Positions 79-44,160 of a stretch of 63,101 nucleotides of DNA are shown piece by piece (position 1 is the stretch's first letter; the number at the start of each line of letters is the position of its first letter). The DNA lies in contig JAKSYS010000348.1 in assembly GCA_022925895.1 (NCBI GenBank), forward strand, positions 1 to 63,101. Direction: 5' to 3'. Made by a program: the position numbers and the translations under genes. Source of the DNA: Fragilaria crotonensis. Lineage: Eukaryota; Bacillariophyta; Fragilariophyceae; Fragilariales; Fragilariaceae. Below the pieces are notes generated by a model. It saw only the letters and a list, made by a program, of their open reading frames with translations, had not been told where the DNA came from and searched no databases.

Positions 79-218
79 TGTTATTATACCCGGGCACCCC
101 GCAGTTGGGTAACCCGGAAGGTCATAGCATTCCAATGACCGAGCCCAGGTCCACTCAAATATCGAGTCAATCATAATTTATGTAGCTCATCGTTTTAACG
201 ACATCTACCTCTTTAACA
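79..218 (+). repeat. 5' LTR of the copia element
   Basis: This 140-bp direct repeat starts TGTTATTATACC and ends CTCTTTAACA. It is identical base for base to 14760-14899. It is preceded by GTTAT (74-78), which recurs directly after the 3' LTR. Confidence 0.95.
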
Positions 219-360
219 GAGCTACATAAACCTTTCCCCCAAGCGTCGCTTCAGATTGCTTGTCTTCGCGAGTTTAGTCATCTACACTACTCGCTTCTCG
301 TCATTTTCGACGCCTCCTCGTGTGCATCTTGCGTCGATTTAATCCGCATTTTCTCGCAGC

Positions 361-1424
361 ATGGCGGCGTCGGCGAATTTCAACTTTCCGTACGCGGTCC
401 TCACACCAATTGAAGGCAAGCCCACGAACACGACGCTGCAGATTCTACAGCGTCAGTTATACACTAACGCGCGCGCCATCGACTCCCCCCGTGGCGGTGG
501 TACACATGGCCATATGGCCATGTTGCTTAGTGATGCCGAATACCTCGTCCGCGCCGGTGTTCCCTTTATCGTCCCAAGACATCCCGGTGCGGCCCCTGAT
601 GCAGCGGCCGGTGCTACTGCCGCCCAAATCGCTGAAGCGATTCGCCAGTACAATCAGGCCGTCGCCGATGTGACGTTGTATAATCGTCTCAGCGCTGCTC
701 TCACTGCTCAAATCATTTCTGCCGTTAACGCGTCCTTTCTTAGCGCATTGAAGATCCGATTTCGGTTTCGGTGATGTTACCCCGCGGGCCATGCTCGAGC
801 ACCTCCGATCTGAATACGGCACCATGACCCCGAGGAATTGAACGCAATCGCGCTCTCGGAGCCGTGGAACCTGATGACCCAATCGAGGACTTATGGGCCA
901 AGATTGCCAACATCCAACGTGTTGCGGCGTTGGGCCAGGTTCCTATTCCAAACGTCACCGTCATCACGTTAACCCTTGCAATGCTTGAAAAGACAGGACT
1001 TTTGGCCTCCACTACTGAGAAATTTCGCCTCCGACCCCTCGATGAGTGGACGCTCGAAGTTTTCAAATCCGAGTTCAAACTCGGTAATCAGGAACGCCTT
1101 CGCAAGCTCACCGCGGGTGACGCCGGATTTCATGGCGCCCATCAGGCCAGCGTCAGCACCCCACTCCCTACTGCTGCTGTTGCTGTTGTCACCCCGGCGG
1201 CGATCACACCACCTGCACCCACCGTCCACGTTTCTGTCGACGGCGGCCGGATGTATTACTGCTGGACACACGGCTTAGGCACACACCGCAATCACACTTC
1301 CGCCACTTGCGATCGTAAAGCCGCTGGTCACAAGGATGATGCGACCGCCTTCAAGATGAAAGGCGGCAACAACACCATCTCTTCCGGACGTCCCCGCCAG
1401 TTGCCAAGCACTGCTCGCGACTGA
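361..1424 (+). pseudogene. copia gag (capsid/nucleocapsid) region, frameshifted
   Basis: Reading starts at the ATG at 361 and is open to 774. It resumes in another frame from about 864 to 1424, so at least one frameshift lies at about 755-860. The second half ends with a cysteine/histidine-rich knuckle (C-W-T-H-G followed by H and C residues near 1258-1330) of the kind found at the C-terminus of gag in diatom copia elements. The protein would package the element RNA into virus-like particles in the cytoplasm. The frame breaks mean no full gag can be made as written. Confidence 0.8.
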
Positions 1425-1436
1425 CATTGCGGGGAG

Positions 1437-3636
1437 CCTATCGCCGCCGCTGTCACAACACTACTACCACCTACGTCTAACGTTCCTAACGATTCTGGTT
1501 ATAGTTGTCTTTCTACAGTTAGCACTTTAGGTCCCCCCACCATCATCCCTCCCGACACGTGCGCCATCGCCGACAGCGGTAGCACGTCGCATTTTTGTAC
1601 GGTCTCCGCACACGTCATCAATAAGCGCCCTACCTGCAACCCGATCGGAATCCGCAACCCCAACGGTACAATCATGTATTCGACTCATGAAGCCGAACTC
1701 GATTTGCCCGCTCTCCCGTTCGCTGCCCGCCACGTCCACATTGTCCCTGCCCTCTCGCATGTCTCCTTACTATCCATAGGGCAACTATGCGATTCCGGAT
1801 GTCACGTTACGTTCGACGCCGTCTCGGTTACCGTGCATCACCATGAGCGCCTCCTTCTCACTGGAGAACGCACACCTGCCACAGGATTGTGGCATCTCAG
1901 CTTGGTCCCGCCCGACGGCGTACACGGCGCGTGCCGTTGAGCCGCCTCGCCGCGTGGCGTCCCCTCTCCCGTGCTCCCGTGCGCCGCTGCTGTCGTGCAG
2001 TCTGCCACCCCAAGCGAGCTTGTCGCATTTGCCCACGCGGCGTTATTTTCGCCGTCCTTGTCTACCCTCCATGGCGCCCTCGAGCGCGGATTTCTCCCAA
2101 ACTTCCTCGGCCTCACCGCGCGTAAGCTCCGCACCCACCCTCCGACCTGTGGCCATGGTCAAGGGCCACCTCGACCAAACACGAAAAATCAGCGGTCCAC
2201 CAAAGCCGATGCGTGCCCTTCAGACGACGCCAGACCTCCGAGGACGGCTGCCACGTTGTGCCAGTCCCCCACCAGCGACCCCAGTAACCAACTCACCCAT
2301 CATTGCTTTGCATCGGTCGTGGAGCCTCATACGGGCCAAATTCACACCGACCAAACTGGAAAGTTCGTGGTTGCATCCAGTACCGGGAACAACTACATTC
2401 TGGTGCTGTACGACTACGACAGCAACAGTATTTTAGTCGCCCCATGCGGAGTCGCACCGGCCCTGCATTCTTACTGCCTTCCAAGGCCTCCATATGCGCC
2501 TTGTCGCTGCTGGCCTTCGCGCGCCTGCATCGCCTGGACAATGAGTGCACTGTTGCGCTCAAGCAATTTCTCGTCGCCGAGGACATTGATTTTCAGCTCC
2601 TGGCATGGCATCGCCGCAATGCGGCCGAACGTGCGATCGCACATTCAAGAATCACTTCATCTCCGGATTGTGCAGTGTGGACAAAAACTTCCCTTTGCAC
2701 TTATGGGACAAGTTACTTCCACAGGCTGAGCTCACGCTTAACCTCCTCCGCGGATCTCGAATCAATCCGAGTTTGTCAGCCCATGCACAATTGCACGGCG
2801 CCGTCGACTTCAATCGGACACCGATTGCGCCCCCCGGCATTCGTGTCCTCGTACACGTCAAACCTGCCGAACGGACCACGTGGTCACCCCACGGCGCCGA
2901 TGGCTGGTACACAGGTCCCGCGCAGAGTCGTACCGGTGTTACACCGTGTGGCTTTGGGATACCCGCGCCACCCGTGTGCGATACCCTCTCGTGGTTTCCG
3001 ACCAAGGTCACCATGCCCCTGGCGTCTTCCAATGATCTCATCTTGGCCGGCATCCACGACATTCTCCACGCGCTTCACCATCCGTCGCCAGCGTCCCCAT
3101 TAGCACCGCTCACCGACAGCCATCATCGGGCGCTCATCGAACTCACCAGCATCCTCACGTCGCTTGCGTCACCGCAAACCAACCCCATTGGTCACGCTAC
3201 TGTTGCACCTCTGAGGGTGGCCTCCCGACAACCGTTATTGTTCTCCCGCCGCCATCGGCAAGTGGACCCACCTCTGAGGGTGGGTGCACCCAGTTCCACC
3301 ACGTCTCCCTTCGGCACCTTCTTCCTCGTCGCTCCGCGACGTGTCCAGTTCGCACCGCTCCCATCCGACACGATTGTCGACACCTTCCGAACTAGCACCG
3401 GGTTCGTCGGTAAGCGACGCCGTCGGTCTTTGCGGTATAACCCCCGCACTCCCCCTGGACCTACGTCCAAGACCATCCACCCCCTCAAGCTCACCAAGAA
3501 AAAGCTCACGACACCTCCGACAGCAACTCCCGCTCGTCGACCCGTCGTCCCCGTGCACCACCAGCACGGCACGCGCGCCAACAAGCAGCGACCTCTCCAC
3601 CATATCGCTGCGGCAGCTCGTGCGCTCTTGCTTCAT
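1437..3636 (+). pseudogene. copia pol, 5' part: protease and integrase, frameshifted
   Basis: The aspartic protease active site reads A-D-S-G-S-T-S (D codon 1572-1574), in frame with the segment up to 1940. The integrase follows in alternating frames: K-G-H-L-D-Q at about 2160, the catalytic-core segment beginning H-T-D-Q-T near 2344 (first D), H-R-L-D-N near 2530 (second D) and N-A-A-E-R-A near 2620 (E). A proline-rich linker leads to codon 3634-3636 (H), where the CACTA element is inserted. Products would be polyprotein cleavage and cDNA integration functions. At least four frame changes make this copy non-functional as written. Confidence 0.85.
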
Positions 3637-4147
3637 CACAAGGTGGGTTTTTGTGAGTTGATATACATGTAGTCATTAATGACGGTTTATGTTTCCTAAA
3701 GTGGTTACTTTTAGACTTAAATAGTCAATAGTTATATATAGTTGGTTTTTTTCTACATGTTATAATGATATAATGCTTAGATATTTCTATTATCAAATTT
3801 TATCAGTGAATTCTCGAATTATAATCAATCTATATGGTTTGATATCAACAAAAAAGATAAACTATAAATATATTTCTGATTGAATCAACAAAGTGATGGA
3901 TATAGCGAATTGATTTTCACTGCAGCAACCATTTTTTCAAAAATTTGACTTGGTGTTTTCTAAATTCACTGATATTGAGGCATACTCGCCAGTTAGGTTT
4001 CCGAGGCACAGTGAATGGCGTTGTCTAAAACTTTTACCGTATTTCTGGCATTTAATGGCTGTTGTTCAACAGGTCCAGTGATCTTTTGAGTTCATTGTTG
4101 AATCTTCGACAATTCTGTGCATTGCTTCTCTCTTTACAAGGATTCAC
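3637..4147. other. left subterminal region of the CACTA element
   Basis: After the 10-bp terminal repeat there are about 500 A+T-rich bases with no credible reading frame. In CMC elements this interval usually holds transposase binding sites and the transposase promoter. I could not define repeated motifs by eye. Confidence 0.5.
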
Positions 4148-7100
4148 ATGCCGAAACGCACATCCTCTACTACGTTGTGTGACGGATGTCACAAACCCTT
4201 CAAGCGAATCCAGGTACACTTGAATCACAATCTTGTTTGCAACAGCATTTATGCTTCTCGGAAGAGCACAATTGATCTGTCTGCTGGTATTGGTGGTACT
4301 TTGATTAACAGGAGTGCTGCCAAGGCCGCGCAAAACCACGCTTCGTTGTCCTCACATATCCTCACAGGACAAGTAAGTACTGGACACCAGGAGGGTCACA
4401 GTCGTCAACGATTTTCTGCACCATTCGAATTCAGTTCTGTTCAGGATGCTGGTCGTGCTGCTTCTGTTGAAGCACTAGATGGTGACGATGACCCCGATGA
4501 GCATGAATTGGACGACGACGATGACGTCAATCCTTTTGGTGAGGAAGAGTCGTTGACGACGCCACCTGATTTGGTTGAGAACGGAACGACAGACCCTGAC
4601 GAAGGAGTCCTTGAATTGTACGAGGAACTCCTCCGCCTTCAGTCAAATCCATTATCCTCGCTGGCCAAATTCTCTTGTGAAGAGAAGGTTCATATTGAGT
4701 TGCTTCAACTCCTAAAAGACTTGAAGGCGCCACTTTCTGCGTTTAAGTACATACTGAACTGGGCCGCGAAAGCAAATGAAAATGGCCACCAATTTCAGAC
4801 CAGTTGCCAGCCATCACGTGAGACGGTTACAAAGATGTTGTTCAGTCGTTATAACATGCATGGTTTGGTTCCCAAGGAGAAGAAGTTGTATCTGCCCTAT
4901 TCAAAGCGTATTGTTACGATGGTATATTTCGATGCACGCCAAGTGTTTGCGTCATTGCTGTCATGCCGTTCCTCAATAAGGACGAGTGTTTTATGTTTCA
5001 TGAACAGGGGATCCATTTGCTGTGCCTGATGCGAGGACATCAGTAATTGGTGACATCAACAGTGGTCGGTGTTATCGAGAAACCTATAAGAAATTGGTGA
5101 AGAATCCGCAGTCTGACATGATACTTCCTTGTGTGCTTGCAATGGACAAGACGCACATTGACCTTCCGGGTAGACTCCAGATGGAGCCAATCACAATTTC
5201 TCACGGGTTATTGAAGCATGAGTTTCGCCGTTTACCCATTGCAATGCGAATTTTGGGTTACATCTATCACGGGAGTGCCTCACGTAAGGCTCAGAAGGTT
5301 GACCTCAACGTTGATTACAATGAGGCACCCAATGACCTTCCTCCTGGTGTTGCGACTGTGAGCAATGTTCTAAAACCTAAAAAAGGCGTCACCTGGCCTA
5401 CATACATGTTGAATGAGTATCACATGCAGATTGCATTTATTCTTTCGGCATCAGGTTTTTTAAGTTTGCAGGACAAAGGCTTCAAGTGGAAGCTTCAATA
5501 CAAGAAGACTGTCCACGACGTCGTATTTCACCCCTTTGTCCCTTTCATAATTGGTGACACGGAGGGTCACGATCGTCTTTGCGGGCACTACACCGCACGA
5601 TTTGCAAAAATCAAACAACTATGCCGTGCATGCGAATGTCCCACAGAGATGACTGGTTACTCAAATCTGTGTACCGCCACAGGAAGCCAAGTCATGTTGG
5701 AGGTTTGGTGAGAGAGGGTGATGTTGAATCCTTACGCGCACTATCACAAAATTATGTTGTTAACGGCTTTAACAAAGTTCGGTTTGGCCAGCACAATGCG
5801 AGAGGAATTTTTGGAGCTTGTCCTGGTGAAATCCTCCACTTGATCACACTTGGGTGGTTCAAGTACTGCCTTGAATCCTTTGCACACCAAGCTGGCGCAA
5901 AGAAAGGGAAGAAATCGGCTGCGCTTGAACATTATGACGCTCTTTGCGCAGACATTGGAAGTGCCATGGTACGGAAAAGTGACCGCGACCTACCACGTAC
6001 AAATTTTCCGAAGGGTTTTCCACGGGATCTAATCTGATGGGTCATGAGATACCAGGATGTCTCCTAGTCAAACTCTTCGCATTGCACACTAGTAGTTTCC
6101 GACAAATCTTTCCCCTCCTAAAGAGTCAAAGAACAAGGCTGCGAATGGAAAGGGATGGAAGAAGAACGAGAACGGAAAGCCTGCAGAAAGAAAGGGACAA
6201 CAGAAACGGCCGTCGGCAACTGTGGAAGCAGGGAATGATGCTGCGATGCACGATGCGAAGCAGGAGGAAGTGAAGTATGTACCACCCCCACTGCCTAAAC
6301 TAGGGTGTCCCAAGCACACCGCAGATTGGATTCACATCATTTCTTGTCTGCTGCAATGGCATCAATGGATGAAGCAACCGACAATAAGGCGTAGTCATGT
6401 GATAAGGTTGGCCACTGGTGTTCGATGGCTAATCCGCAATGTTGCCAATATTTGCCCACGGATGTCGGGAATGAGGAACAATACAATCAAGATGCACCTT
6501 GCGCTTCACATCAGTGAGGATATACTTGATCATGGTGTCCCCGACGTGGTAAACTCATCATATGCAGAATCTGCACACATTCCACTTGCAAAGAATACAT
6601 CTCGCAATACTCAGAAGCGTGTTGCATCCTTTACAAGACAAGCAGCACACCGGTACCATGAGGATTTGGCAATCTTGGTTGCCAATAATGATGTGGACGA
6701 GTTTGAGGCCAAGAAGCCTCCAATCCCTTTAACTTCCTCTGGTGCTGCTGGTCGTCGGTTTGTTCTGTCGCAGAAACCTTCCTCAGCTGGTGATGACATC
6801 ATGTTTGCGTGGAACTCTCCCCGCGCGACAGATGATTCGCCTAAAAACAGGCTTCCATCTCGTATCTCCAAATTTATTATGAAATATTGTTGCCCAGATG
6901 TCCCCAGGGGTTTGGCAAAGTCTGTGCAATGCTTCACGGAGTTTATCTCTGAGGAAGGAGATCGGTACAGAGGCCATCCAAACTATCATGGGAAACGTTG
7001 GTGCGATCATGCAATGATCAATTGGAATCTTGATTTCTTGCCAGGACTCATTCACACCTTTGTGGACCTTCGTCATCTCCCAGATAATACTCGTATTCGC

Positions 7101-7502
7101 ACGAAACTACAAAAGAATCTCAAACCTGGAATGTATGCGGTTTTGGAATCCTACGATGCAGAAGATGCAGATCCGGCTGTTCCGAATAATATGATCGGCC
7201 TGTACACACTTCATAGGGAACCAGAAGAGGGTCGTGGCAATATGCTGGTATCTATTTACCTCATCGAGGTTGGGAGCATCTTTGCTCCCACAGTTGGGAT
7301 TCCGGACTTCGGGAACAGAGACTCAGACAAGTATTTGTTCCTATTCCGAAGAAGAGAGGAATGGCCATCAGCATGGGATCATTTTGTACAGTATTGTTGC
7401 AAGAATAACGAGGAGGAAAGCTTAGAGTCTGAATACGAGGAGGAGGATGACGAAGACAGCGAAGTCAACGAGGACGACGAGCAGGATGATGAAAGACGAT
7501 GA
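4148..7502 (+). pseudogene. CACTA/Plavaka-like transposase, multiple frameshifts
   Basis: The start at 4148 gives an N-terminal Cys/His segment (C-D-G-C-H-K, then H-L-N-H) followed by an acidic stretch. The catalytic part is spread over several frames. The first D is in A-M-D-K-T-H (about 5140), the second D in I-G-D-T-E-G-H (about 5550), and the probable E in C-P-G-E-I-L-H (about 5825). The C-terminal half (6222-7502) includes K-M-H-L-A-L-H and N-T-S-R-N-T-Q-K-R as in fungal Plavaka proteins, and ends in a Glu/Asp tail. Frame changes near 4966, 5009, 5700, 6037 and 6115 break it; no GT-AG pair at the first two restores the frame. Enzyme class: cut-and-paste DDE transposase acting in the nucleus. 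Confidence 0.8.
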
Positions 7503-7537
7503 GCAGGAGGATGACAATGATGACGATGACGACAAGA

Positions 7538-7572
<35 letters not shown>

Positions 7573-7750
7573 AGATGACGACGAAGGGAATGACAATGAG
7601 ATGACAGACGACGACGACGACGATGATGATGATGAGGACAATGACGACGATGACAACAACGCGGATGATAACGACGATGACAACAACGGATGATAACGAT
7701 GATGACAACAAGAACGAGGATGATAACGACGATGACGACGACGACGAAGT
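7430..7750 (+). repeat. GAC/GAT microsatellite at the transposase 3' end
   Basis: Imperfect repeats of gatgac/gacgat run for about 300 bases. The first part codes for the Glu/Asp tail of the transposase and the rest is downstream. Long frames on the opposite strand here are valine/serine low-complexity artefacts. Confidence 0.85.
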
Positions 7751-7797
7751 GAATACTCAACAAGTACAATGGTAGGTTACATACGGCAAGCTAAATT

Positions 7798-9894
7798 CTA
7801 AACTTTAGTACTCCTTTCTTCTCCTTTTCTTTTCTTCCATTGTTGTGAAGGTGCACCAACGCCTACTAATTCCATCCCCAGATTGAGCTCATCATCAAAA
7901 GGTGTGGTCACTCCTCCAATCGTATCATCCTTGCACGTCGTGGACGATGATACGATGGCAGCACATGCATTGACCCTGCCCGCCCGAACAACCTTCTCTT
8001 TGCATGCCGTGAACGTTCCGTAAAGGTGATTGTCAAACCTTGACCGCCACCCGAAAAACTTCGGCGTTGTCCTCGCCGTCGGGTTTGGAAACCGAAGTGC
8101 AGTGCCGAAGCACTCGCCCATCCCAGCTGATGGCAACTCCGTGATAGAGGCGCACAGCCAACCCAGAGAAAGGTTTGCCATCTGCTCGCGTGCCAAACAC
8201 ATTTGGCATTATGAAGTACCAATTAGAGGCTTTGCCGGGCATCTCTTCCGTCCACACAGCAAAGCCCTGCGAACAATCATTGACATCAAAGTGTGAAGAG
8301 TTGCCGAGGTTGACACTCATGTCAATAGTGCGCCCAACCCAATCCCCATCCTTTCCGTCCATAGGAGACATCATCGGAACACCAGAGTCGCTTTCCAAAG
8401 TCTTGATCAAGTGCATCAAGTCAGGGTAACACAGACGGCCAAGGCAACAAAGAGCAGCAACCATGTCTCGCAGGACAAGTTCGTCAACCTTTTCGTTTGC
8501 AGCGTAAGGAATCATGGTAGCCCCATCTCCCTCCACACGCATGCCAATGGCGTACATGTTACCAACATCACCCCCCGTATTCCTGACCCCACTAGTTGTT
8601 CGCATGCCCCGGCGAATCGCAGTGTTACACCGCGTGATCTTCAAAAGCAAAGACGCACGGCGGGCTATTCTCAATTTCAAGTCGTCCATCGGCACAGGAT
8701 CTGTTTTCAGCATGAGGGTATGCCTCACCCTCACCACAGTTTGCCGATCCACCGAGGTCCCACACGGTGCATCATCAATCACGACGTCTACCATCGGATC
8801 AACCACGGGATCCAACACCAAGCATGAAGATGGAAGGTCAAAGTAACGTGTACCCGAAGCGTAGTGCCGACCGCCGAGTCGGGCAGACTTAGATCCCGCA
8901 AGAATAGAGTTGAATTCCAGTGCCAATACCTCCCGTGGCCATGCCAAGGAGAAATTCTGTCCTGAGATAACATCTGGGGGCAACATGGGGCCGTCTTGAT
9001 CAGCGCACTGATTGGCACGAATGATCACACGTTTGTCGCAAAGAATATTGTACGTCATGCGCCACACCGAAACTGGAAGGCCATCAGAACCGCCACCACA
9101 ATGAAGTCGCTTAACATAACCGCCATCACCAATGGTGTACATAGGAACACGACGTTGTTGAGAGTCCAAAACTTCACTGCGATGTAGGCGAAGCCAACTC
9201 ATGTCGTGAGGAACAAGCGTCTTTTCAACACCTGCGTCAGCACGTCGTCGATCACATGAGCAGTAGAAGACACCAGCATTGGGGATGAAAGCTATCAACG
9301 CACGGAACTGATAGTCCACAGAGTCATCAAGATCATCCGGTTTGAAGCATCTCATCACCCGAACATCATTGCCATTGTTAATCTCGCTTGTAGTGGGAAC
9401 AATTGCACGATTCAGCACAACATCCATGAAAAACACTTCACAGACAGATTCCCCAGGGAGATGCTTCACATGCGACTCGTGGAACATATCTGATAGCTTA
9501 TTGATGCGATAGAAGTCGCAGATGCGATATCCCACAGAATCCAAGGCCGCTCGAAAGAATGAGACAGGAGTGCCGCAGATATCGTCATCAACGCCGCCAA
9601 TTGGAGGAAGAGGAGGATTCAGCACGGCATCTCTGGCTGTCGCAACCCGCTCGCGATAATCCTCCTGATCAAAAACAGTACCTGCATCAACAGTGAAAGT
9701 ACACGCTCCTTTGACGGAAGGAATCCTTCAGCAGTCCGATCTAAAGGCAGAGAACTGCCAGCAATGTCATGGCCTGCAGCACCAACCCCAACCGCACGCG
9801 GATTGCGTCCCATGGCTGAAACAGAGCTCTGCGCCGGAAGCGTACGCCGCGCGCTAGCTATCCTGGCGCGATCTCGTGAAGGATCTGCAAACAT
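7798..9894 (-). CDS. putative Fe(II)/2-oxoglutarate dioxygenase-like protein carried by the CACTA element
   Basis: The main frame (9625-8033, 530 residues) ends with a motif set typical of 2OG oxygenases: H445-F-D447, then H495 in L-Y-H-G, then R504 in W-D-G-R. The spacing of about 50 residues between D and the distal H, and +9 to the R, fits the Fe(II) and 2-oxoglutarate ligands; H508 is an alternative ligand. The upstream frame (9894-9619) and the downstream frame (8035-7798, Y-G-T-F-T-A-C-K-E-K) appear to be the true N- and C-terminal parts, each separated by a one-base frameshift. The gene runs opposite to the transposase. TET/JBP-type dioxygenases linked to DNA transposons are known in basidiomycete fungi. 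Whether this one acts on nucleic acid is inference. Confidence 0.5.
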
Positions 9895-9904
9895 GATGAT
9901 ACCG

Positions 9905-10134
9905 ACGATAAGGCGGCAACGCGATCACTAACGACAAGTTGTTCACCCCTGTCTGGGGGGAAACAACCAATCCTGAGTTCGCACGCGCCAGAAAAACAAG
10001 CAATTCCCCCTCTTCACGTTGAGTGATAAGGCAGCACGTCGTCACAAAGGACAGATTTGCAAATCCCTGTCTGGGGAGAAGGCAATTGTACCAGAGTTCC
10101 AACACGCCAGAAAAGCAAGCAGTTCCCCCTCTTC
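9905..10134. repeat. diverged tandem duplication of about 115 bp
   Basis: Two copies (about 9910-10017 and 10030-10133) share ccctgtctgggg, then gagttc, then acgccagaaaa and aagca followed by ttccccctcttca. They lie directly upstream of the minus-strand dioxygenase-like gene. They could be its promoter or transposase binding sites; no protein is coded here. Confidence 0.7.
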
Positions 10135-10938
10135 AGACGACAACAAGCATGAATGTGGTATACCTCACGTATGTGCTGGGCACAAAGAGTGCAACAGCAG
10201 TGTGGATGTCCATAAATTGTTGTGAAAGCAACTCGTGCAAAATAGTGCATTTCACGTCGATTCCAGTATAACCAATACTACGTGCAAGGCACGCGTTGCC
10301 CATGTGGGACTTCAGGCCAAAAATTTCCTTCCCCCCTCAAAACTGTCTAAGTACAAAAACAAATATACATGTGTTAGTCATTTATTTTTTCATCTTCTTC
10401 ATTTTTCCATGGCAACAAGACCCTAACTAATGTAGCCATAGATGTGCTAAATCCTTATGTATTCAGGCACACATTCTTGTCACATACAGAAATTCCAAGT
10501 CGAATGCATCACCAGCCAGCCAGTACTTAAGATGATAACGGTAATTTACCTTAGTACTAAGAACTGACGCATCGCAGCACTTAGTAACAAATCATATATA
10601 CCAAGCACATGCGCATCTTCATCGTACCGAGTGAGTGTACATGATACGCAAACATCGGAGTATTCCACGAAGTAATCGTGGCGGTTACAAAACGATTAGC
10701 GGCAAAATATTGCCATATAAACGTATACACATCATGATATATTGCAGGAATATAACTAGTAAGCCTTCAATCCCCGACACAGCAATATTTATTTACAACG
10801 GTAGCTTGCCACAAACAATTGTACAGTGCCTTTAGTAATAATTTCTGTCGACACACCCATTCAAATTGACTCTGTGTCAAGCATACAAACAACATGTGTG
10901 CCCAACTCTTCAAATTTAAATGGGAGTTGTGAACAAAA
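10135..10938. other. non-coding spacer inside the CACTA element
   Basis: About 800 A+T-rich bases separate two divergently transcribed genes (minus-strand gene ending its 5' side near 9900, plus-strand gene starting near 10939), so a bidirectional promoter is likely here. I see no gene or clear motif. Confidence 0.4.
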
Positions 10939-12342
10939 GTGCTTCGCGCTCAAAACTTTTCTTGTGTACCGCAAGCGATGAAACTTGTTCCCACAATTGT
11001 ATACTTCTACAACAGAGTAACTGAAGCCATGAACAACGGAACTGTATCTGACAAATCAGACTCGAATCTTTATATGAGGATGAAGACAGCGGCAGTGGCG
11101 AAGACGAAATTGCCGAATCGTCAAAAGGAGGAAAGCGGCAAAGAGAACATATCGAAGAAGAGGACCATGACAACGAGGAGGCTACGGCACGGTCTAGTAG
11201 CCCGGACCACACATATAACACAAGTGACGGAGAAGAAAATAGTGACCAAGAACGAGAGTGGGATAGGGAGTTGGACAAAATGCTTCTGCCGGGGTGCCGA
11301 GGAATTACATTCGTCCGATGATGACGATGATGATGACGACTATGTTGTTCCTGCAAAACGTGGAAGAACATCGTCAGCAGGAGCTGCGCAGAATTTGGAG
11401 GGGTTGATACGAGTAAGAGGTATGTCAGCAAAAGAATCGTCCATGTCGGAAAAACACCAGGAGAACATTGCAGATAGGGTCACAACTTACGTCAGAAAAC
11501 ATATGTTTCGAGTCGTCAAGTTTATCAGCAATGAACACATGTTTGGTAAGGCTTTCAAGGAGGTGATGGACCACGAGTGTGTGGCAAACCGAGATCGTGT
11601 GAAATTCCAGATGTTATATGAAAGTGTTTTTAACCATGCGTTGAACAGCAAGAGGAGCACATGCGAGCAGGCGGGGAAGAACATCATGATGAGAGAACTA
11701 AAACAATTCAAGGAAGATAGAATGGATGTGTTCTCAATTGATGAATTACAAAAAATGAGGAGAGCAAGTACGGAAAGGGAGAAAAAAGCATTCCTCTGGT
11801 TCTATGGAACATTTCTTGAGTGCGTTTGTGGCCTGAAGCACTGGGGTGTACAAAAGAGTAAGCAATTGGTGTCGCAGGCGACGAGCTCGGCCACAAAACA
11901 CGGCAAGTTGGTGACCATCAGCGACGAGGCTTTCGCTCTCCTTCTCTACGACAACTATATTGAGAAGTGGCTCAAGGCATTTCAGCGAGAGGAACAACTG
12001 CGGCACGAGACCCCACCAGCAGAACCACAACCAAGGAGCGGCGCCGGCAGCAGGGAAAAGTCCAAGAGGGAAAGGGAGAAAGGCAAGTATACTGCGCAAA
12101 AAACAGGCCACTGCAAGTATGGTGGATGGAGCCGCGAAGGAATGGCAAGGTACAACGAATTCTATCACTTGGTGAAGGCTGATCGCACGTGTGAACAAGC
12201 CATGGATATGGAGCGTGAACTGCTCAATCACTGCATTGCACTGAAAAGGAGAGGAACAAATGGTGAAGGAAGTCGAGACACCTCCGATGGAGAGCAGGCA
12301 GAAGCATTAGAACCAGTGGAAGCATGTTGGGATTTGGAATAA
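10939..12342 (+). CDS. third protein of the CACTA element, TnpA-like by position, family not recognised
   Basis: This is an open frame of 467 residues, all between the transposon ends. The annotated start may be too far upstream, since a later Met such as that at 10978 is equally possible. Residues 40-100 are rich in Lys/Arg, followed by a run of eight Asp near residue 127 and P-A-K-R-G-R, which could be a nuclear signal. The middle is predicted helical. A basic segment (about residues 370-390) precedes G-H-C-K-Y-G-G-W-S, a compact motif that looks DNA- or metal-binding. Plant CACTA elements encode a second DNA-binding protein (TnpA) beside the transposase, so such a role is plausible, but no homology was established. 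Unlike the transposase, the frame is intact. Confidence 0.6.
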   Translation: MLRAQNFSCVPQAMKLVPTIVYFYNRVTEAMNNGTVSDKSDSNLYMRMKTAAVAKTKLPNRQKEESGKENISKKRTMTTRRLRHGLVARTTHITQVTEKKIVTKNESGIGSWTKCFCRGAEELHSSDDDDDDDDYVVPAKRGRTSSAGAAQNLEGLIRVRGMSAKESSMSEKHQENIADRVTTYVRKHMFRVVKFISNEHMFGKAFKEVMDHECVANRDRVKFQMLYESVFNHALNSKRSTCEQAGKNIMMRELKQFKEDRMDVFSIDELQKMRRASTEREKKAFLWFYGTFLECVCGLKHWGVQKSKQLVSQATSSATKHGKLVTISDEAFALLLYDNYIEKWLKAFQREEQLRHETPPAEPQPRSGAGSREKSKREREKGKYTAQKTGHCKYGGWSREGMARYNEFYHLVKADRTCEQAMDMERELLNHCIALKRRGTNGEGSRDTSDGEQAEALEPVEACWDLE

Positions 12343-12953
12343 CAACGCAATTTATTGAGGTGCACAATTATTATGATCATCACCATAACATTCTGAAACG
12401 AAACCGCAACGAGTGATTACTCCACTTTTGAATGTGGAGATGTCGACATGCAGCGTCATTGTTAAACATAGAAACTTAAACTATACACATATTGTTGTCA
12501 AGCAATCAATATTTCAAGCTAGTAAGCAACGTTTAACAACGACTCTGCACAATTTAAAGAATTTCATTTCATCAGATAAAGTTATAGCATTTATCTTTTA
12601 TTGTTATAAATGACTATAATATGGTGACAAATACCCATTTAAATTGATTTATTCAATTTACATTGTGATTTAAATTTACTGTATAACGTTGCTTAAAACC
12701 AAAAAAGCCATGTAAACCAATTTAAAAGTTTAAAACACAAAAAATTGTAATTACAATCGACAAATCTTGTTCTATTTTGTTTTTTGTTTTGATGTTTGTT
12801 GAGTATTTGCTTAAAGGTGTAGTATGATACTAAACTGTGAAATATAACTTTAAAATGTTAGTGATAAATATTTTATATTCATTAATACCCGTCCACTAAC
12901 CATATGTATTGAATCCATTTTATTTTTTAAAAGTCACCATATACCACCTTGTG
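12343..12953. other. right subterminal region of the CACTA element
   Basis: About 600 very A+T-rich bases run to the terminal repeat CCACCTTGTG. No reading frame is credible here. Confidence 0.5.
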
Positions 12954-12955
12954 AT

Positions 12956-14535
12956 GTTGACGCTGCCCAACCAGCCCCCGCCGACGCCGGCGTCCACTAT
13001 GCTTTCCACGGAAACGCGTTCAATCCCGACACGGGCCGACTTGCAGAATACCGGGAGCTTAGCCATTGCAGTGAGGGACCGCTCTGGCAACAGTCCAACG
13101 CCGAAGAAATAGGGCGCCTCGCCCAAGGCTACGGCGACGTCAAAGGCACAAACACCATGTACTTCATTCCGGTCACCGCCATCCCAGCCGATCGCAAAGC
13201 TACTTATTTACGCGTTGTTGTCGCGTCGCGCCCCGAAAAGGTAAACCCCCGTCGCGTACGGTGGACCGTCGGCGGTGACAAGGTTGATTATCCCTTTGAC
13301 GTGAGCACGAAGACCGCCGATTTGACAACTGCCAAGTTGTTGTTCAACAGCGTCTTGTCAACTCCCAACGCCAAATTCATGGCGACCGATCTCAAAGATT
13401 TCTACCTTGGCACTCCCATGGAGCGCTACGAATACATGCGTATTCCCATCGGCTTGATTCCCGACGTCATCATTGAGTTGTACAACTTGCTGCCGTTAGT
13501 CCACAACGGCCATGTCTTCGTCGAAATTCGACGCGGCATGTATGGCCTCCCACAGGCCGGCCGCCCGCCAACGACCAACTCATCGTTATGGCACCCCATG
13601 GCTATCACCCTGTCGCGCTCACGCCCGGCTTATGGAAACACTCGTCGCGCGACATCGTGTTCAGCCTCGTTGTCGACGATTTCGCATCCGATACACGTCG
13701 CAGGCCGACGCCGATCATTTGATTACCACACTGAACGCCATTATCAAGTCAGCGTCGATTGGACGGGCACACGTTATTGCGGCCTCACCCTCACGTGGGA
13801 CTATGTCCGCCGCACCTGCGACCTGTCCATGCCAGGCTACATTGCCCGCGCACTGCAACGATTCCAGCACGTTGCCCCACCGAAACCGGAACATTCTCCA
13901 CACCCATGGCAACGGCCAACGTATGGCGCCAAAACCCAGTTTGCCCCAGAGCCTGATACCGCTGTCGCGCTCGATGCAACGGACAAGACTCGAATTTCGA
14001 GGTGCTCGGCACGTTACTGTATTATGCCCGAGCAGTTGATTCCACGTTACTCACCGCTATTGGCGAATTGGCAACGGAGCAAGCCGGCGGTACCAAAACC
14101 ACGATGGACAAGCTCGCACAGCTGCTTAACTACTGTGCAACGCATCCCGATGCGACCGTTCGTTTCACTGCTAGCGACATGTTGCTTGCCATCGAAAGTG
14201 ACGCCTCCTACCTCTCGTCGTCAAGCCCGATCCCGCGCAGCGTACTTTACCTGACAAACAAAACCACAGCGCGCAACGCCGGTTTCAAACCTAACGGCGC
14301 TGTCCACGCCTTATGTCAAATAATGCGTGAAGTCCGTCCAGCGCCGCCGAAGCTGAACTTGGGGCGTTATTTCACAATGGCAAGGAAGCATGCCCCTGCG
14401 CATCGCTCCGACGAAATGGGGCATCCCCAACCGGCGACGCCCATGGCCACCGACAACAGTACCGCCAGCGGCATCGCCACTGACACTGTCAAGCAAAAAC
14501 GCTCCAAAGCCGTCGACATGCGTTTCTATTGATCC
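12956..14535 (+). pseudogene. copia pol, 3' part: reverse transcriptase and RNase H, frameshifted
   Basis: The frame continues from the codon at 3634-3636 across the CACTA insertion and is open to about 13560, covering F-N-P-D-T-G, A-E-Y-R-E-L, M-A-T-D-L-K-D-F-Y-L-G and G-M-Y-G-L-P-Q-A-G. After a frameshift the RT active site V-V-D-D is at 13669-13680. Further frames contain the thumb/connection segment (near 13740-13850) and the RNase H start E-S-D-A-S-Y-L (about 14190). The enzyme would copy element RNA into DNA. Several frame breaks make it inactive as written. Confidence 0.85.
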
Positions 14536-14759
14536 GCGATCGCGTCCGCCAAGGCCAATTTCAAATTTATTGGCGCAAAGGCACACGAACCGCGCCGACT
14601 ATTTCTCCAAACATCATCCGGCCTCCCATCATCAGGCCATTCGTTCTACGTACTTATACTCGGCCACGAATCCGACAAAGAACTATTTTGATTGCCTTGC
14701 CGATACCGAGCTTCCGCCCACGGCACTGGCACTCCATACTGTGGACCCTGGTGAGGGTG

Positions 14760-14899
14760 TGTTATTATACCCGGGCACCCCGCAGTTGGGTAACCCGGAA
14801 GGTCATAGCATTCCAATGACCGAGCCCAGGTCCACTCAAATATCGAGTCAATCATAATTTATGTAGCTCATCGTTTTAACGACATCTACCTCTTTAACA
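14760..14899 (+). repeat. 3' LTR of the copia element
   Basis: Identical to 79-218 over all 140 bases. It is preceded by the purine tract at 14750-14759 and followed by the target duplication GTTAT (14900-14904). Confidence 0.95.
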
Positions 14900-14904
14900 G
14901 TTAT

Positions 14905-29715: not shown

Positions 29716-31233
29716 TCATGCCATTTTCTCCAGCAACTCTTGCAAATACGTCTGCAACTTATCCATGGCAATTGTTAGTTCCTCCATGGACGTGGCATAA
29801 CTAATCCGAACAGTCCCCGGTGCACCGAATGCCGATCCGGGCACAATGGCCAATTTGTGCGTTTGCAAGAGTTCTTTGCAAAATTCCACATCATCAAAGT
29901 TGGTGGAATGTTGCATATAATACGACACATCGGGCAATACATAAAAGGCACCCTGAGGGGGGACTGCCACAAAGACGTGTGGCATTTCCTTCGTGTTGGC
30001 CAATCGTGATAGTACATAATCACGTTTCGTCTTCATTTCATCAAACAAGACTTGCAATTCCTCTTCTGACACTTGTTGCAACGCTGCCACTCCTGCGGCT
30101 TGACTAATACTGGAGGCACATGATGTGAATTGCGATTGCAATGTCGTACAGGCTCTTGCATACGGTGCCGGTGCTGCCAAATATCCCAATCGAAAGCCGG
30201 TCATGGCGTACGCCTTACTAAAGCCATTGACAAGGAGAGTGCGATCGTACAAGTACGTGGCCATGGAGGGACAATCGGTACCCGTATAACAGAGTCGTTC
30301 GTAGATTTCATCGGACAAGACGAGGACACGTGGGAAATCCTGCAATACGAGTGCCAATTCTTGCAATCGATCGGCATCATGAACACCACCCGTGGGATTG
30401 GATGGGTTGCAAAAAATCAGCAATTTGATATCGGCATGTTCTTCCAATGCCGTGCGTAGGGCGGCAGGTGTCAAGAGAAATCCATCGTCGGCCTTGGTTT
30501 CAACAATAATGGGTTCGGCTCCCGCCAATCGTACCATTTCTGGATAGGATGGCCAGTAGGGTGCAGGAATGAGGACTTTATCTCCGGTACCAACTGTTGC
30601 CAATATTCCCTGATAGACAGCCTGCTTGGCCCCATTGGCCACAACAATTTCGGTTGTGGGATTGTAGTCGAGTCCCTTTCGTGTCTTGAGATCATGACTA
30701 ATGGCTTTTCGAAGAGGTACCGTTCCCGTAACAGCAGTGTACTTCGTATCACCATCCAACAAAGCCTGAGCTGCCGCTTCCAAGACGGCTTTTGGAGGTG
30801 GGAAATCAGGTTCTCCGACACAGAGCGAGGTGACCTGCTCACCCTGTGATTCTAATTCCTTGACGAGCGAAAAAATCTCCACTGTTTTGCTTGGAAGTAT
30901 TGTATCAATCAGTGGGTTGATATGGGTTTGAGCAGCTAACCGTGTATGCGAAGATGATCCTGATGACGACGATGATCTTCTCTTTACAGTAGGAATTGGA
31001 ACGACCCACGCCACAGCAAGAAAGGGGGATCGGTTCTTGTTGGTGCTACTGCTCCAGAGCAGTACTGATAGCAACAGCAGAACACTTTTAGAGGGAAAGG
31101 TAATCATACCGATGTACTGCTGTCGAACACTTTGGAGTAGTTGCACTATACTCAGTAGCTGATGGGAGTGGGAGTGGGAACTTGAATTACGCGTTCGATT
31201 GGATTGTCGATTGGATTGTGGGAGAGATGTCAA
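29716..31233 (-). CDS. aspartate/prephenate-type aminotransferase (class I fold), probably plastid-targeted
   Basis: An intact 505-residue PLP-dependent aminotransferase. Visible landmarks are G-E-P-D-F (about 140), Y-T-A-V-T-G (166), N-P-S-N-P-T-G (276-282), S-D-E-I-Y-E (307-312), the PLP lysine K340 in N-G-F-S-K-A-Y-A-M-T-G, R348, and the substrate carboxylate arginine R476 in V-R-I-S-Y-A. This is the prokaryote-type aspartate or glutamate/aspartate-prephenate aminotransferase group, which feeds aspartate and arogenate synthesis. A hydrophobic leader starts at M43 (ATG at 31107), followed by A-V-A-W-V-V-P, which resembles the diatom plastid cleavage site with an aromatic at +1. I therefore prefer M43 over the first Met. 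No intron is seen. Confidence 0.88.
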   Translation of the reverse strand: MTSLPQSNRQSNRTRNSSSHSHSHQLLSIVQLLQSVRQQYIGMITFPSKSVLLLLSVLLWSSSTNKNRSPFLAVAWVVPIPTVKRRSSSSSGSSSHTRLAAQTHINPLIDTILPSKTVEIFSLVKELESQGEQVTSLCVGEPDFPPPKAVLEAAAQALLDGDTKYTAVTGTVPLRKAISHDLKTRKGLDYNPTTEIVVANGAKQAVYQGILATVGTGDKVLIPAPYWPSYPEMVRLAGAEPIIVETKADDGFLLTPAALRTALEEHADIKLLIFCNPSNPTGGVHDADRLQELALVLQDFPRVLVLSDEIYERLCYTGTDCPSMATYLYDRTLLVNGFSKAYAMTGFRLGYLAAPAPYARACTTLQSQFTSCASSISQAAGVAALQQVSEEELQVLFDEMKTKRDYVLSRLANTKEMPHVFVAVPPQGAFYVLPDVSYYMQHSTNFDDVEFCKELLQTHKLAIVPGSAFGAPGTVRISYATSMEELTIAMDKLQTYLQELLEKMA

Positions 31234-31239
31234 AACACA

Positions 31240-32095
31240 ACAATGCGTCTGAAAAAGTGAAGATGAGACGGACGGTCATGAAAGCACGTTACACGTCAGA
31301 CGTCAGCACCCCAACAACAGTAAATTCTCTTCAGTACGCAGGTTGCCAGTATGCATGTCTCCAAACTCCAAACTCCCAACTACAAGTGACCACATCATAA
31401 ACAGTCAACCCGGTTTAAGTCGACACAAGCTTATTACTAACCGGTAGGTCTAGTTGCTCTAGTCGTAGAGGAGTAAAGTGATGGGATCTAATATCATGAA
31501 GGAATGAAAAGGATCATCATCTTCAACACTCCATAGCAGTCATACAGGTACGAGGTCTGGTATCTAATCGGCAAAAAGTATTTTACAGATTGAATGTTCG
31601 AAAGTGGTTTTGGGTGTAACCTTATACATGATCAACCCACTCCTTGCGAGTTGTATACATACTGTATGCGACGTATGGGCGAGTCTTGGTACCAGGTAGG
31701 CTCATGGGCGTATGATAGTCCTGATCCCCTTCCTCATGTTTCCTTGCCGGACGCCATGTATCTTCCAATCAACGGAAACGGAGTCTATCCTGGAACAGTA
31801 CACCCGATTTGGGGAGTGTAGTCCAGTTTATTCGGCATAAAGGCATACATATTGTACATCACAAACGTCTTTGGAACGGAGCCGACCTTGAGGTTGATCT
31901 TGTCAAGTCGATTGAACGACGATGGTCCATACAACCATGCGAATTACAACAAACCATACGCTATACATACTCCGAATGTCCATGTATAGCGGACATGTAT
32001 CGAATATTAGCAGGGATATAACATACACAGAGAACCGATACTCGGAGCTGCGAGTACCTGGTATAGTGAATAGTGAATAGCTGCATGGATGTTAC
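31240..32095. other. intergenic sequence upstream of the aminotransferase
   Basis: About 850 bases hold the aminotransferase 5' flank and no recognised gene. The pogo-like element begins at its right edge. Confidence 0.4.
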
Positions 32096-32607: not shown

Positions 32608-33111
32608 GTGGTATCACGGTTGAGATCGTTGGTATTGGGAGGTGATCGTGGACGCTCCTGTGAAGAACACGATGTTTGCGGTGCCGTGTTGCAGGAAGAC
32701 TCGGTTGTGCGGATACGGCACGTGCAGATTCTTAATGAGATGGGAAACGAGGAATCCGCACTTGCTGTGTATTGGATTAGTGACGGTATTGACCGCTGTC
32801 GAGTGGGGTTTCTTCCTCGACACCTCACAAAGCAGTGGCAGCTTTATGATGGGCGTATCGCACAAGTGGTAGATGTCTACGAAGGGTCTGAAAGTCCCAC
32901 AAAGCGGCGAAAGAACACCCGGAATTGCGGTTGCTGCGAGGCCGTACTCATTGACAATCGTGACAAGGAGGGCACTACTACCAGTGTTGACAACCGAACA
33001 GCACGAACAGCGAGAGCAGGAATGACAGTTCTGGTTCAAAGCAACAGAAACAAGGAGAGTGAGGACGACTACTACTACTACAACTTAATTTTAATTTTGG
33101 TACGTGTTTGA
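32608..33111 (+). CDS. accessory protein of the pogo-like element, unknown function
   Basis: An intact 167-residue frame wholly inside the element and convergent with the transposase (the 3' ends overlap by 21 bases). The core reads V-V-R-I-R-H-V-Q-I-L-N, then A-V-Y-W-I-S-D-G-I-D-R-C-R-V-G-F-L, then R-K-N-T-R-N-C-G-C-C. The dense aromatic/charged pattern and the KRRK stretch suggest a folded nuclear domain. I do not recognise a named family. Its position suggests a role in transposition or in host interaction. Confidence 0.6.
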   Translation: MVSRLRSLVLGGDRGRSCEEHDVCGAVLQEDSVVRIRHVQILNEMGNEESALAVYWISDGIDRCRVGFLPRHLTKQWQLYDGRIAQVVDVYEGSESPTKRRKNTRNCGCCEAVLIDNRDKEGTTTSVDNRTARTARAGMTVLVQSNRNKESEDDYYYYNLILILVRV

Positions 33112-34930
33112 AAGGAGCGGCTCTGAGTGATCTTGTTGATCGTGTCGCTCACTCCTTTTTGCCTGTTGCACTTCATGCAGAATACGAACAAGTTGAATTG
33201 TGTCAGGTAGTGGCGGAAGAGATTCGTCCAATGCGCTGCCGCAAGAATTACCAACGACGATGCTGTTCAGCGTCCCATTGTATGTCTTGTCAATGTGCCG
33301 ATGGTTGTGCTGGTTGGCGTGTGGTCGGTTGACATCATGGTAAGAAAGGAGGGGCTCCGAATGATTTCTCATCGTCTCATCGTCATCGTTGCTGCCAACG
33401 TTCTCGTCATCATCACCGCTCCCATGATCATCGTTGCTACCCTGCTGCTGTACAATGTCATTTTGGTGTCCAACACTGCAGACTTCCTTGTCGGCAGCAT
33501 GTTGTTGTTCCTCCCCCTGCTGGTTGTGTGGATGGTAGTCTTCTTGGCAAGAAAGAAGAGGCTCCGAATGATTTCTCAGCGTCTCGTCATCATCACTTCC
33601 ATCGTACTCATCACCACCCTCATCATCCTCAGGATTGTCGTTTTGTTGATTACCAACGAAGTCGTTAACTTCATCGTCGGTGGTGTGCTCTTCTTCCTGA
33701 ACAGGAGGAACAGGATAGTAACTGTACATTCCATGTCGCCATGAGTTCCTCACCATCTGTGCTGGTAAGTCTTGACTCGAAACAGAGCACCATTCGGCGA
33801 TGTGCTTCCTGGTCGAGGGGTCAATTTTCCCTTGGTGTAAGCCCGTGCTAATCATCCATTCCTCCCACAGTTTGCGCATCCTGGACTTGAATGGTTTATT
33901 CACGCCAACATCGACGGGTTGGCACAGAGAAGTGCAACCACCAGGAATGTGTTCAACCTCAACGCCCAACCCCTCGATTGCATTCACTGTTGACCTCATC
34001 ATGTGACAGCGGTAAGAGTCAAGCAAGAGCAGCGGAACAATTCCTGGAGGTGCTTGGTCAATGTACGGCTTCAAGATCCTGTCGATCCATATGTGCATCA
34101 CTCTTTCGTCCATCCATGCATTGCTTTGGCATGCATACTCTATGTCATCTGGATACGTGACGAATTCATTTCTTTCGATTCGACCATTTGGGGCTCCTTT
34201 AAAAACAAGCAATGGGGTAAGTACTCGACCACTTGCAGACACCGTCATGGCACATGTTACTCTCTTTGTGTCGCTTGTTGACTTTCGAATGTGAATTGTG
34301 CGCAGTCCCACTGACTCAAGTGTTCTCTTCGCATTAAATGTAAATGGAACAGGCGTTTGGTCCATGTTAAGGATAAAATCTTCATGACGATTGCTCTGCG
34401 CGAGTTTCGGACGGATTGTTTGCACGTAGTCTTGGGCCAAACCTGCAGTCTCGGATGGGGATCGCTGGCTTTCATGTGTTCCCATCCTGTGCACAAGACT
34501 GTGCTTTCTGATCCACCGCCTTACTTTGATACCTTGCGTGACTCGATTTACGCTGGAACTCGGACATCAATCGAGACGCTTGAATGACGACAGTAGAAAT
34601 AGAAACTGCAAATCCTTGTTCCCTTAGTTCGAAGATGAACTTGAGTAGATCATTTTCGATTGGCGCTAACACTGAAGTAGGACCCTTAGCTGTACTCTTT
34701 GCCTTTGCATTGCCGTGTTCCACCATGGCCCTCGAAGTCGTAGACCATTCTCTGTACTGTTTTGGGATAATGTTGAGTGCTCTACATGCAGCCCTGATTG
34801 ATTCGCCCGCCTCTACACGCCTTCTCACATTCCGAACAATTGCAAGTCTCTCAAAGTTCGCGAAACGCCTCCTTTTACTGTTCCGAGGAGTAGGTGTAGT
34901 TGACCCATTCATGATGGCCAACGACGACAT
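33091..34930 (-). pseudogene. pogo-like DDE transposase, one frameshift
   Basis: The N-terminal frame (34930-34472) starts with S-K-R-R-R-F-A-N-F-E-R and carries a helix-turn-helix (I-R-A-A-C-R-A-L-N-I). Near 34535 the frame shifts by one base. The second frame (from about 34540 to 33091) continues R-R-W-I-R-K-H-S-L-V-H-R-M-G. The catalytic acids are in N-M-D-Q-T-P-V, L-L-L-D-S-Y-R-C-H and Q-P-V-D-V-G-V-N, the DDD pattern of DDE_1 transposases. The C-terminal 170 residues are acidic low complexity with repeated R-N-H-S-E-P-L-L-S. It would excise and reinsert the element at TA; as written the frame is broken once. Confidence 0.88.
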
Positions 34931-38646: not shown

Positions 38647-39444
38647 GGCAATTGCATCAGACGAGGCAGGAGGTTAGTATCATTAGGAATAAAGTTGACA
38701 TGCTCAAAGTACGCATTTGCCTTTTTGGAGAATTCACGCAAAGATGTTTGCCTCGTGGGTCATAGACCGAGTTATCATGTGCATTGAGCTCCAGGCTGTC
38801 ATGGGATATAGCAGGGCCACTCCACTTCACACTAATGCAAGGCAATACAGTACTCCATTATTGCGTCCAGTCATTGGTGTTTATTCTTCGACTACATACT
38901 ATTGACGAGTTGTTCGTTTCTCAATTTGTCTCTACAGCAGTTACGGCAGAAGCGTTATTTGATCGGTGTCCATGTTCTTGACGAACGTTGACAATTCCAT
39001 GTCGCTGGCTCATGATTATTAGCAATAAAGGGATAGACCAGACATAGACGTTGCCGTCCGCCAAGGCTCATATACAAAGCCCTCGGCAATCCTGGAAAGA
39101 AGTAGCAGTTCAGGCTTTTGGTTTCTCCTCTGTTGCATACCTCGTGACCAGTTAATGAACTTGTAAATCACAGAAAATATCTGCAAGTGTAACGAACACG
39201 GCGTCGATTGGTGCAAGTCAATCCGTGACATGGTAGTCTTGACATGTTGATTGCGACAAAAGGTATAGCAGGAGGAATTCCTAAGTCATTCATTGTAAAG
39301 GAGATTTTATGCCGAATAAAAGGACTTCAATTCTCATGTAACATGCAATAGAATCCTAGATAAGTCCGTTAATAAACTATCTTCATGTCATTTTGCCAAC
39401 CAAAAAAAGGATTCGTTTCAGAATCACCAAAGAATAACTAAAGC
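38647..39444. other. intergenic region between convergent OSCA-like and GT8-VWA genes
   Basis: It has no gene. Its last 110 bases (tctcatgtaacatgcaat onward, about 39330-39440) recur before the stop of each GT8-VWA copy (about 44200 and 48680), so the block belongs to the tandemly duplicated unit. Confidence 0.6.
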
Positions 39445-43490: not shown

Positions 43491-44160
43491 AGGTATGGTC
43501 AACTGTGGAACACCTTCATTCATTGCCGTCGGAATTCTGATCATAAATTCTTAACAGAAGCTCGAAGAAGTTGAATTCGACAAAGGTAAACAGGTTGCTG
43601 TGGATCCAGCCGATGCTGACCAGCCTTGAACGGCATTCATCTGAAGGTCCCAAACAAACATCGCTCTACTTTATGATTGCACTCTTCCATTGGTCAACAC
43701 TACAGTGGTCATTAACAATTACCACACCTTTCGCCGCAAGGACAGATCACGTGAAGCGTCACACTTTGCGGCGCCGCATGAGAAGACCCCAAGATGCCAT
43801 GAATTTCGGGGCTGAAATCCAGATGATGGAGCGATACACCAATATGACCAAGATATTATTTCTTGGTACTGCGGTGTTGTTCCATTTTTCCCGGCGCTCT
43901 GTTCATTGGTTCGTTTGTCCACGAAATCATTGTCACTGTGGACGGATTCTGTCTGATGCGAACAAAATGCACTTGTTGCCACGGAGGTCGTTTCATCTGG
44001 CCTGAGGACAGGTTTTCCCTGACACAACCTCTGTCGAGATGTCAACCCTTTCAACAACTGGGAGAAGTTTGCAATCCAAGCAACGACACAAGGTTTCAAC
44101 AACCGAACACAGTTGCTAGGTGCAAGCCGACCCCGAACGTGGTTGACTTGACGCGACTAA
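43490..44160 (+). pseudogene. relic of the OSCA-like gene, tandem copy 2
   Basis: It matches the intact gene in order but with gaps. The part near 43495-43600 corresponds to 36645-36800, and 43610-44000 corresponds to 37465-37960 (M-L-T-S-L-E-R-H-S-S-E-G, E-R-Y-T-N-M-T-K-I-L-F-L). About 650 bases of the middle are missing, and shifts and stops are frequent. It occupies the same convergent position relative to GT8-VWA copy 2 as the intact channel does to copy 1. Confidence 0.85.

Follow-up and report, generated by a model that had tools for sequence, protein, structure and literature searches.

An oxygenase-like cargo gene shared by Plavaka-type and Mutator-like transposons of a diatom

Transposon-borne DNA oxidases have already been described from fungi (Kojima 2025, PMC12730594). 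TET+ PlavakaB elements, which occur in Agaricales, belong to a group with CATCA..TGATG ends and duplications of 2–3 bp; according to the same source, the function of the fungal TET/JBP cargo has not been experimentally validated, and CcTET and CMD1 are TET/JBP dioxygenases (Kojima 2025, PMC12730594). Here we describe an oxygenase-like gene in a diatom setting, carried by Plavaka-type and also by Mutator-like elements (MULEs). The parallel with the fungal transposons, drawn in a preliminary description of this DNA, is apt.

The window, that is, the whole stretch of 63,101 nucleotides analysed, corresponds to contig C279 in an assembly of 62 Mb. The host had been taken for an alga, and its light-harvesting proteins identify it as a diatom rather than a red alga, the group considered first: the genome contains 61 matches to PF00504, and among PDB chains the best of these most resembles FCPI-7 (E 1.4e-87) and Lhcr11 (E 1.4e-86), both from the diatom Chaetoceros. 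Positions 3634–12956 form a Plavaka-type DNA transposon of 9,323 bp that holds the oxygenase-like gene (hereafter the cargo gene), placed antisense between the transposase and a third ORF, as the preliminary description had it. The main features are as follows.

79–14900, no strand assigned: LTR retroelement hosting the transposon insertion, with identical 141-bp LTRs (79–219 and 14760–14900) and a GTTAT duplication
3632–3633, no strand assigned: left target site duplication, TT, present as a single TT in the empty sites
3634–3646, forward strand: left terminal inverted repeat, CATCACAAGGTGG, shared by both termini in the C108 and C777 copies and by a single terminus in the C295 copy
4082–7502, forward strand: Plavaka-family transposase in several frames, of which the piece 5004–5711 matches PF18759 (E 3.6e-5)
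7798–9894, reverse strand: oxygenase-like cargo gene, whole extent, split over three frames in the window copy
8036–9727, reverse strand: main open frame of the cargo gene, 564 aa
10933–12342, forward strand: third ORF, 469 aa, of no known family
12944–12956, reverse strand: right terminal inverted repeat, the element ending in CCACCTTGTGATG
12957–12958, no strand assigned: right target site duplication, TT, present as a single TT in the empty sites

The element ends noted earlier are genuine, but CACAAGGTGG, given as the whole end, falls three bases short of CATCACAAGGTGG...CCACCTTGTGATG; it was dropped as a complete terminus, the repeat being CATCACAAGGTGG. The insertion region of the LTR element is found in four unsplit copies elsewhere in the genome (98–100% identity). 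When the two flanks are joined with a single TT (440 nt), they are identical to C503 and C98 (440/440) and 98% identical to C83 and C246. The insertion is therefore exact and accompanied by a TT duplication, and it came later than a retroelement whose own LTRs are still identical. The frames of this retroelement, in our reading, suggest a copia-type element. Both ends were examined in six further elements. Matching repeats and a duplication are present at C777 (TT), C529 (CA) and C108 (AT, the flanks being palindromic); the C109 element has the repeats, with no duplication found, the C295 element has a repeat at one end and no partner in the other-end stretch examined, and at C341 neither terminal repeats nor a duplication were found in the stretches examined. 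In total, CATCA..TGATG-type ends with a 2-bp duplication characterize four of the seven elements (window, C108, C777 and C529), with CATCACAAGGTGG or CATCAGAAGGTGCG as the repeat.

Regarding the transposase, the window piece scores 23.6 bits, below the PF18759 cut-off of 26.3, and the C295 copy (23.7 bits) also lies under it. Genome-wide, 76 of the 80 PF18759 matches are above the cut-off, including the window-family copies on C777 and C40, and it is through these copies that the transposase places the window element in the Plavaka family. PF02992 had no match in the genome, in a search whose controls gave none either. The proposal of a gene inside a CACTA/Plavaka-type transposon is borne out by the repeats, the TT duplication, the exact empty sites and the transposase of the family. 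In an earlier count across the genome, 30 of 72 cargo loci had a relative of the third ORF no more than 6 kb away.

The remainder of the window contains an aminotransferase class I/II gene (29716–31275; PF00155, E 3e-70), a DDE_1 transposase ORF belonging to another transposon type (33091–34566; PF03184, E 2e-23), and, at about 39393–53200, a gene in three tandem copies spaced by about 4.5–4.9 kb, one of which has a weak, sub-cut-off von Willebrand A match. An Rfam search of the window gave no match at the gathering score.

The window copy of the cargo gene is recent and its frame is interrupted twice, near both ends: the N-terminus lies in the frame 9619–9924 and the C-terminus in the frame 7798–8208. 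The first break is bridged by the C295 copy (L003) and the second by the C108 copy (L002). Intact relatives include ORFs of 754 aa at C592 and 861 aa at C183. Some near-identical copies among L001–L006 differ more by gap columns than by substitutions (92 versus 22 between L001 and L002), and assembly indels may be a partial cause of the broken frames in window-family copies. At C30, C393, C773, C110 and C649 the cargo gene matches in two pieces, the first ending at residue 458–459 (C30, C393 and C773), 434 (C649) or 340 (C110) and the second starting at residue 463 or 464, just ahead of the H-x-D core; an intron is possible there.

The cargo protein gave 90 genome matches with the window query and 60 with a distant member as query, which merge into at least 97 loci, a lower bound. 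A listed Plavaka transposase lies within 6 kb at 44 of the 97 loci, against about 2.9 expected, and 43 of the 44 associations show the same convergent order, the transposase lying 3′ of the cargo gene and facing it from the other strand. In two of the 44 (C22:22860 and C40:97818) the transposase is 5.9 kb away, past an ORF3, and probably belongs to a neighbouring element. A MULE transposase is found near the cargo gene at seven of the 97 loci, with the same geometry in all seven, although four of these are not independent, three having been added by hand and one being the source of the MULE query. At the remaining 46 loci neither listed transposase occurs within 6 kb, which is what would be expected if this were a host gene carried by chance, with no role in the transposons. 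Such an origin is nevertheless very improbable: the position and orientation are the same in 43 of 44 Plavaka and in all seven MULE associations, there are at least three switches of carrier and there is constraint in diverged pairs (see below), and when seven apparently orphan loci were read at 10 kb, five turned out to have a neighbouring transposase. Four of these (C592, C108, C183 and C873) have one of MULE type, and C137 has a Plavaka relative so diverged that blastp detects it (E 1.8e-12) while Pfam does not; at C131 and C754 no recognised transposase was found within the 10-kb stretch. C131 (L029:8624–9991) has an ORF for an Ulp1-type peptidase (E 5.9e-9) on the 5′ side of the cargo gene, where Plavaka-type elements hold ORF3. 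No cargo relatives were confirmed in viral contigs, GTDB genomes or phages, and no report of diatom transposons with such cargo was found among the open-access papers listed, which is not proof of novelty.

MULE carriage was absent from the preliminary description, whose picture of a Plavaka carrier holds. MULEs, to which the VANDAL elements also belong, are recognized by a MULE transposase domain, long inverted repeats and a duplication of about 9–11 bp. At C592 (L032) the transposase domain is above the cut-off (PF10551, E 6.1e-12), while L035 and L031 match PF10551 below it (E 7e-4 and 0.007) and L033 matches a related domain only (0.0035). The MULE-type transposases at C108, C183 and C873, all with sub-cut-off Pfam matches, are homologous to one another, and those at C108 and C873 also to that at C592; the L031 transposase is homologous to those of L035, L033 and L032. 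The C108 MULE (L031), with the cargo gene inside, ends in 72-nt repeats (99% complementarity) and is bounded by the 11-bp direct repeat CTTCACACGGG; it is the only one of L031, L032, L033 and L035 with complete MULE anatomy; L032 has a 33-nt inverted repeat, with no duplication found.

A midpoint-rooted tree of the cargo protein with 24 rows (15 labelled Plavaka, four MULE and five unlabelled) implies that the carrier changed at least three times, and starred branches force each of these three changes. The label of L016 comes from its diverged transposase and that of L020 only from ORF3; neither adjoins a MULE row. A single clade of MULE-borne cargo genes was rejected by the AU test (p 6.75e-6). 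The MULEs at C108 and C873 are 58–74% identical over the three longest blastp pieces, yet under the midpoint root the deepest split of the tree, which has full support, separates their cargo genes. The gene is thus a mobile accessory gene of diatom transposons, which has moved repeatedly between Plavaka-type and Mutator-like elements.

A dN/dS ratio was obtained for 11 of the 17 pairs tried, and seven of the 11 gave values of 0.11–0.26, four of these seven with dS of at least 1.9. The safest pairs are C592/C873 (dS 0.13, ratio 0.26) and C160/C134 (dS 0.26, ratio 0.17). The cargo family is under purifying selection in diverged pairs. The four youngest pairs, including both window pairs (0.55 and 0.62), gave 0.55–1.18; because they contain few changes (2 and 12 substitutions in two of them) and stretches out of frame (L002, L003, L018 and L021), they say little either way, with no constraint visible.

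The active-site pattern proposed in the preliminary description consisted of H445-x-D447, H495 and R504, which correspond, at a constant offset of 34, to H479, D481, H529 and R538 of the main ORF. Conservation was assessed at 33 of the 97 or more loci, six of the 33 being near-identical copies of the window family, and the relevant positions in the window are the following.

8285–8293, reverse strand: H479-x-D481, predicted iron ligands, invariant at the 33 loci read
8141–8143, reverse strand: H529 (H495 in the earlier numbering), not conserved (26 H, 4 D, 2 N and 1 Y of 33)
8102–8116, reverse strand: R538...R541-H542, each residue present at all 33 loci read, with H542 as the predicted third iron ligand

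Three of the four proposed residues are therefore invariant, but H495 is variable, and by the very test of conservation that had been proposed for it, the original ligand set fails. H529 is ruled out as the distal iron ligand, being a histidine in only 26 of 33 loci. Invariant at the 33 loci are H479, D481, D484, W535, D536, G537, R538, R541, H542, T544 and S545, whereas S534 is Ser in 28 and Gly in five. H542, which is located 13 residues past H529 (508 in the earlier numbering), inside the run WDGRxxRHxTS, appears to be the better candidate for the third iron ligand, and H479 and H542 are the sole invariant histidines in a 22-sequence alignment. Since H529 varies and H542 does not, the triad is to be read as H479-x-D481...H542, in the order that ends in WDGRxxRHxTS. 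This HxD(E)...H iron triad, assigned by pattern, is conserved at all 33 loci read, and judged from the sequences the conservation of the H-x-D/R motif is not chance. R504 (R538) is likewise invariant; 2-oxoglutarate binding is the role that the preliminary description put forward for it.

The distance between the H-x-D motif and the distal histidine, 63 residues, is usual for oxygenases of the double-stranded β-helix (DSBH) fold. A 2-His-1-carboxylate set with this spacing and the likeness of the conserved I.WDGR..RH run to the distal-His strand of TET2 both argue against a protein of another kind. Such a protein, devoid of oxygenase activity, would bind DNA to counter silencing or would serve as a second protein in transposition, its H-x-D and RH residues having a structural role or binding a different metal. 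That account, which we consider rather unlikely, draws on the precedent of VANC, a known transposon-encoded anti-silencing type (PMC10398659, PMC5735166), on the failure to detect any oxygenase family (see below), and on further invariant acidic residues in the 22-sequence alignment (D469, D484, E494 and D536). The invariant residues are best explained by an Fe(II) oxygenase, which is a likely identity for the protein.

The sequence searches for known oxygenases were negative. No Pfam 2OG family matched any of 22 cargo members at E≤1, and four further long ORFs matched none; PHROGs yielded no oxygenase (best E 0.033), and profile searches of the PDB gave chance matches only (best E 0.35 and 0.21). 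A genome search with Tet_JBP (PF12851) gave no match at E≤1; its first look yielded no candidate, it can overlook weak matches, and its controls matched in E. coli only, under the cut-off. Single-sequence AlphaFold models of the cargo protein (pLDDT 30.5 and 34.2) provided no usable structure. Aligned by hhalign with two TET rows, the family core gave E 0.038, with 8 of 300 column shuffles scoring as high, and a smaller profile gave E 0.092 (18 of 300); TET was the sole comparator. In this alignment the cargo stretch ...GVAIRLSHG-VTISWDGRVIRHCTS... is placed on a TET2 stretch, with a TET2-like pattern GxAxxxxHG..I....R, and WDGRxxRHxTS falls on the TET2 distal-His strand one residue out of register, so that R541, not H542, meets the ligand histidine. 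H529 is set on a TET2 histidine that is not known to be an iron ligand. When the position of the 2OG-binding arginine of TET2 (the residue before [VLI][YF]G) was aligned by eye, the cargo proteins had His in 22, Asn in eight, Lys in one and Asp in one of 32, and the position nine residues beyond it held Lys in 31 and Arg in one. The similarity to TET2 in sequence is only suggestive.

These comparisons bear on the possibility that the cargo protein is a true but very diverged member of TET/JBP, a 2OG-dependent 5-methylcytosine oxidase beyond profile detection, like the fungal PE type. The carriers are of the same type, with PlavakaB-like CATCA..TGATG ends, 2-bp duplications and switching between superfamilies (Kojima 2025, PMC12730594), and the GxAxxxxHG..I....R stretch points in the same direction. 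Sequence methods are weak at TET/JBP distance, because a TET2 profile run against the PDB found TET2 chains and one chance hit and missed the other TET/JBP structures named in Kojima 2025; the failed searches are thus weak counter-evidence. Against such membership stand the absence of a Tet_JBP match, the by-eye 2OG-Arg position, where a basic Lys occurs once and the rest are His, Asn or Asp, and an hhalign score within reach of shuffled columns. On balance we find membership of TET/JBP doubtful. A slightly stronger, still tentative case can be made for a new iron oxygenase family, not derived from TET/JBP, that at least two unrelated transposon superfamilies of diatoms took up as cargo against silencing and have traded between them. 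Since the customary 2OG anchor is missing, such a family might use another co-substrate or yield another product; if real, it would represent an independent origin, outside fungi, of transposon-borne DNA-mark erasers. Of the earlier interpretation, the Plavaka cargo gene and the H-x-D signature stand, while H495 as a ligand and a TET/JBP family match do not; the kinship to TET/JBP, for which an HMM comparison had been suggested, is suggestive by hhalign only.

C5-methyltransferases (PF00145) give 13 matches in the genome, the best with E 5.9e-67; the ORF of this best match, on a contig that also bears a Plavaka transposase, matches HhaI and, more weakly, DNMT1 chains. Among six copies of the window element, transitions are in excess at CpG (121/6358 versus 126/22005 at other C, 3.3-fold, over 15 pairs that share events), and the excess is 3.7-fold for C592/C873 and 5.1-fold for C160/C134. 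Two comparisons of the tandem gene in the window, presumed to be a host gene, gave 1.65-fold and 1.03-fold. C137/C76 (2.2-fold, 3 versus 4 events) and C341/C502 (0 versus 1 event) are not informative, and the identical LTRs offer no CpG or other-C transitions to count. The CpG excess fits the pattern that deamination of 5-methylcytosine would leave and, together with the host C5-methyltransferases, would be consistent with a role against silencing by methylation.

The explanation that we favour, and to which we give an even chance, is that the cargo gene would encode an Fe(II)-dependent DSBH oxygenase whose iron is bound by H479, D481 and H542. On this view, selection has kept the protein active, and the gene has changed repeatedly between Plavaka-type and Mutator-like carriers. 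By oxidising a mark on the DNA or chromatin of the transposon, the enzyme would most likely shield its carrier against silencing by the host. The best candidate for this mark would be 5-methylcytosine at CpG, as proposed for the fungal transposon TET/JBP genes; its oxidation against silencing is suggested by the conserved residues, by the example of the fungi and by the excess of CpG transitions. The model predicts an oxidised base or changed methylation at the carriers, and loss of activity upon mutation of H542 but not of H529.

Compared with the known systems, the diatom elements are most similar to the fungal TET+ PlavakaB elements as described in Kojima 2025 (PMC12730594), with which they share a Plavaka transposase, CATCA..TGATG ends, 2-bp duplications and an oxygenase-like cargo found in several superfamilies. 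They differ in the diatom host, in a cargo without a detectable TET/JBP match and in a third ORF without a known family; the cargo has HxD where the fungal PE type has HxE, and it is also carried by MULEs, which are absent from the carriers given in the abstract of that study. The same arrangement in a diatom, with a cargo protein outside every family model searched and with switching to MULEs, would show the capture of mark erasers to be a recurrent counter of transposons to silencing. With the TET/JBP dioxygenases, for which TET2 was compared, the cargo protein shares the H-x-D...H pattern and a weak likeness at the distal-His strand, whereas it has no Tet_JBP match and no conserved Arg or Lys at the by-eye 2OG-Arg position, and contains a long conserved N-terminal region. 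Finally, the VANDAL/VANC system of Arabidopsis resembles the present one as an accessory transposon gene with an anti-silencing role, reported for VANC (PMC10398659, PMC5735166) and proposed for the cargo; VANC proteins are described as sequence-specific anti-silencing proteins, and the likeness is one of description.
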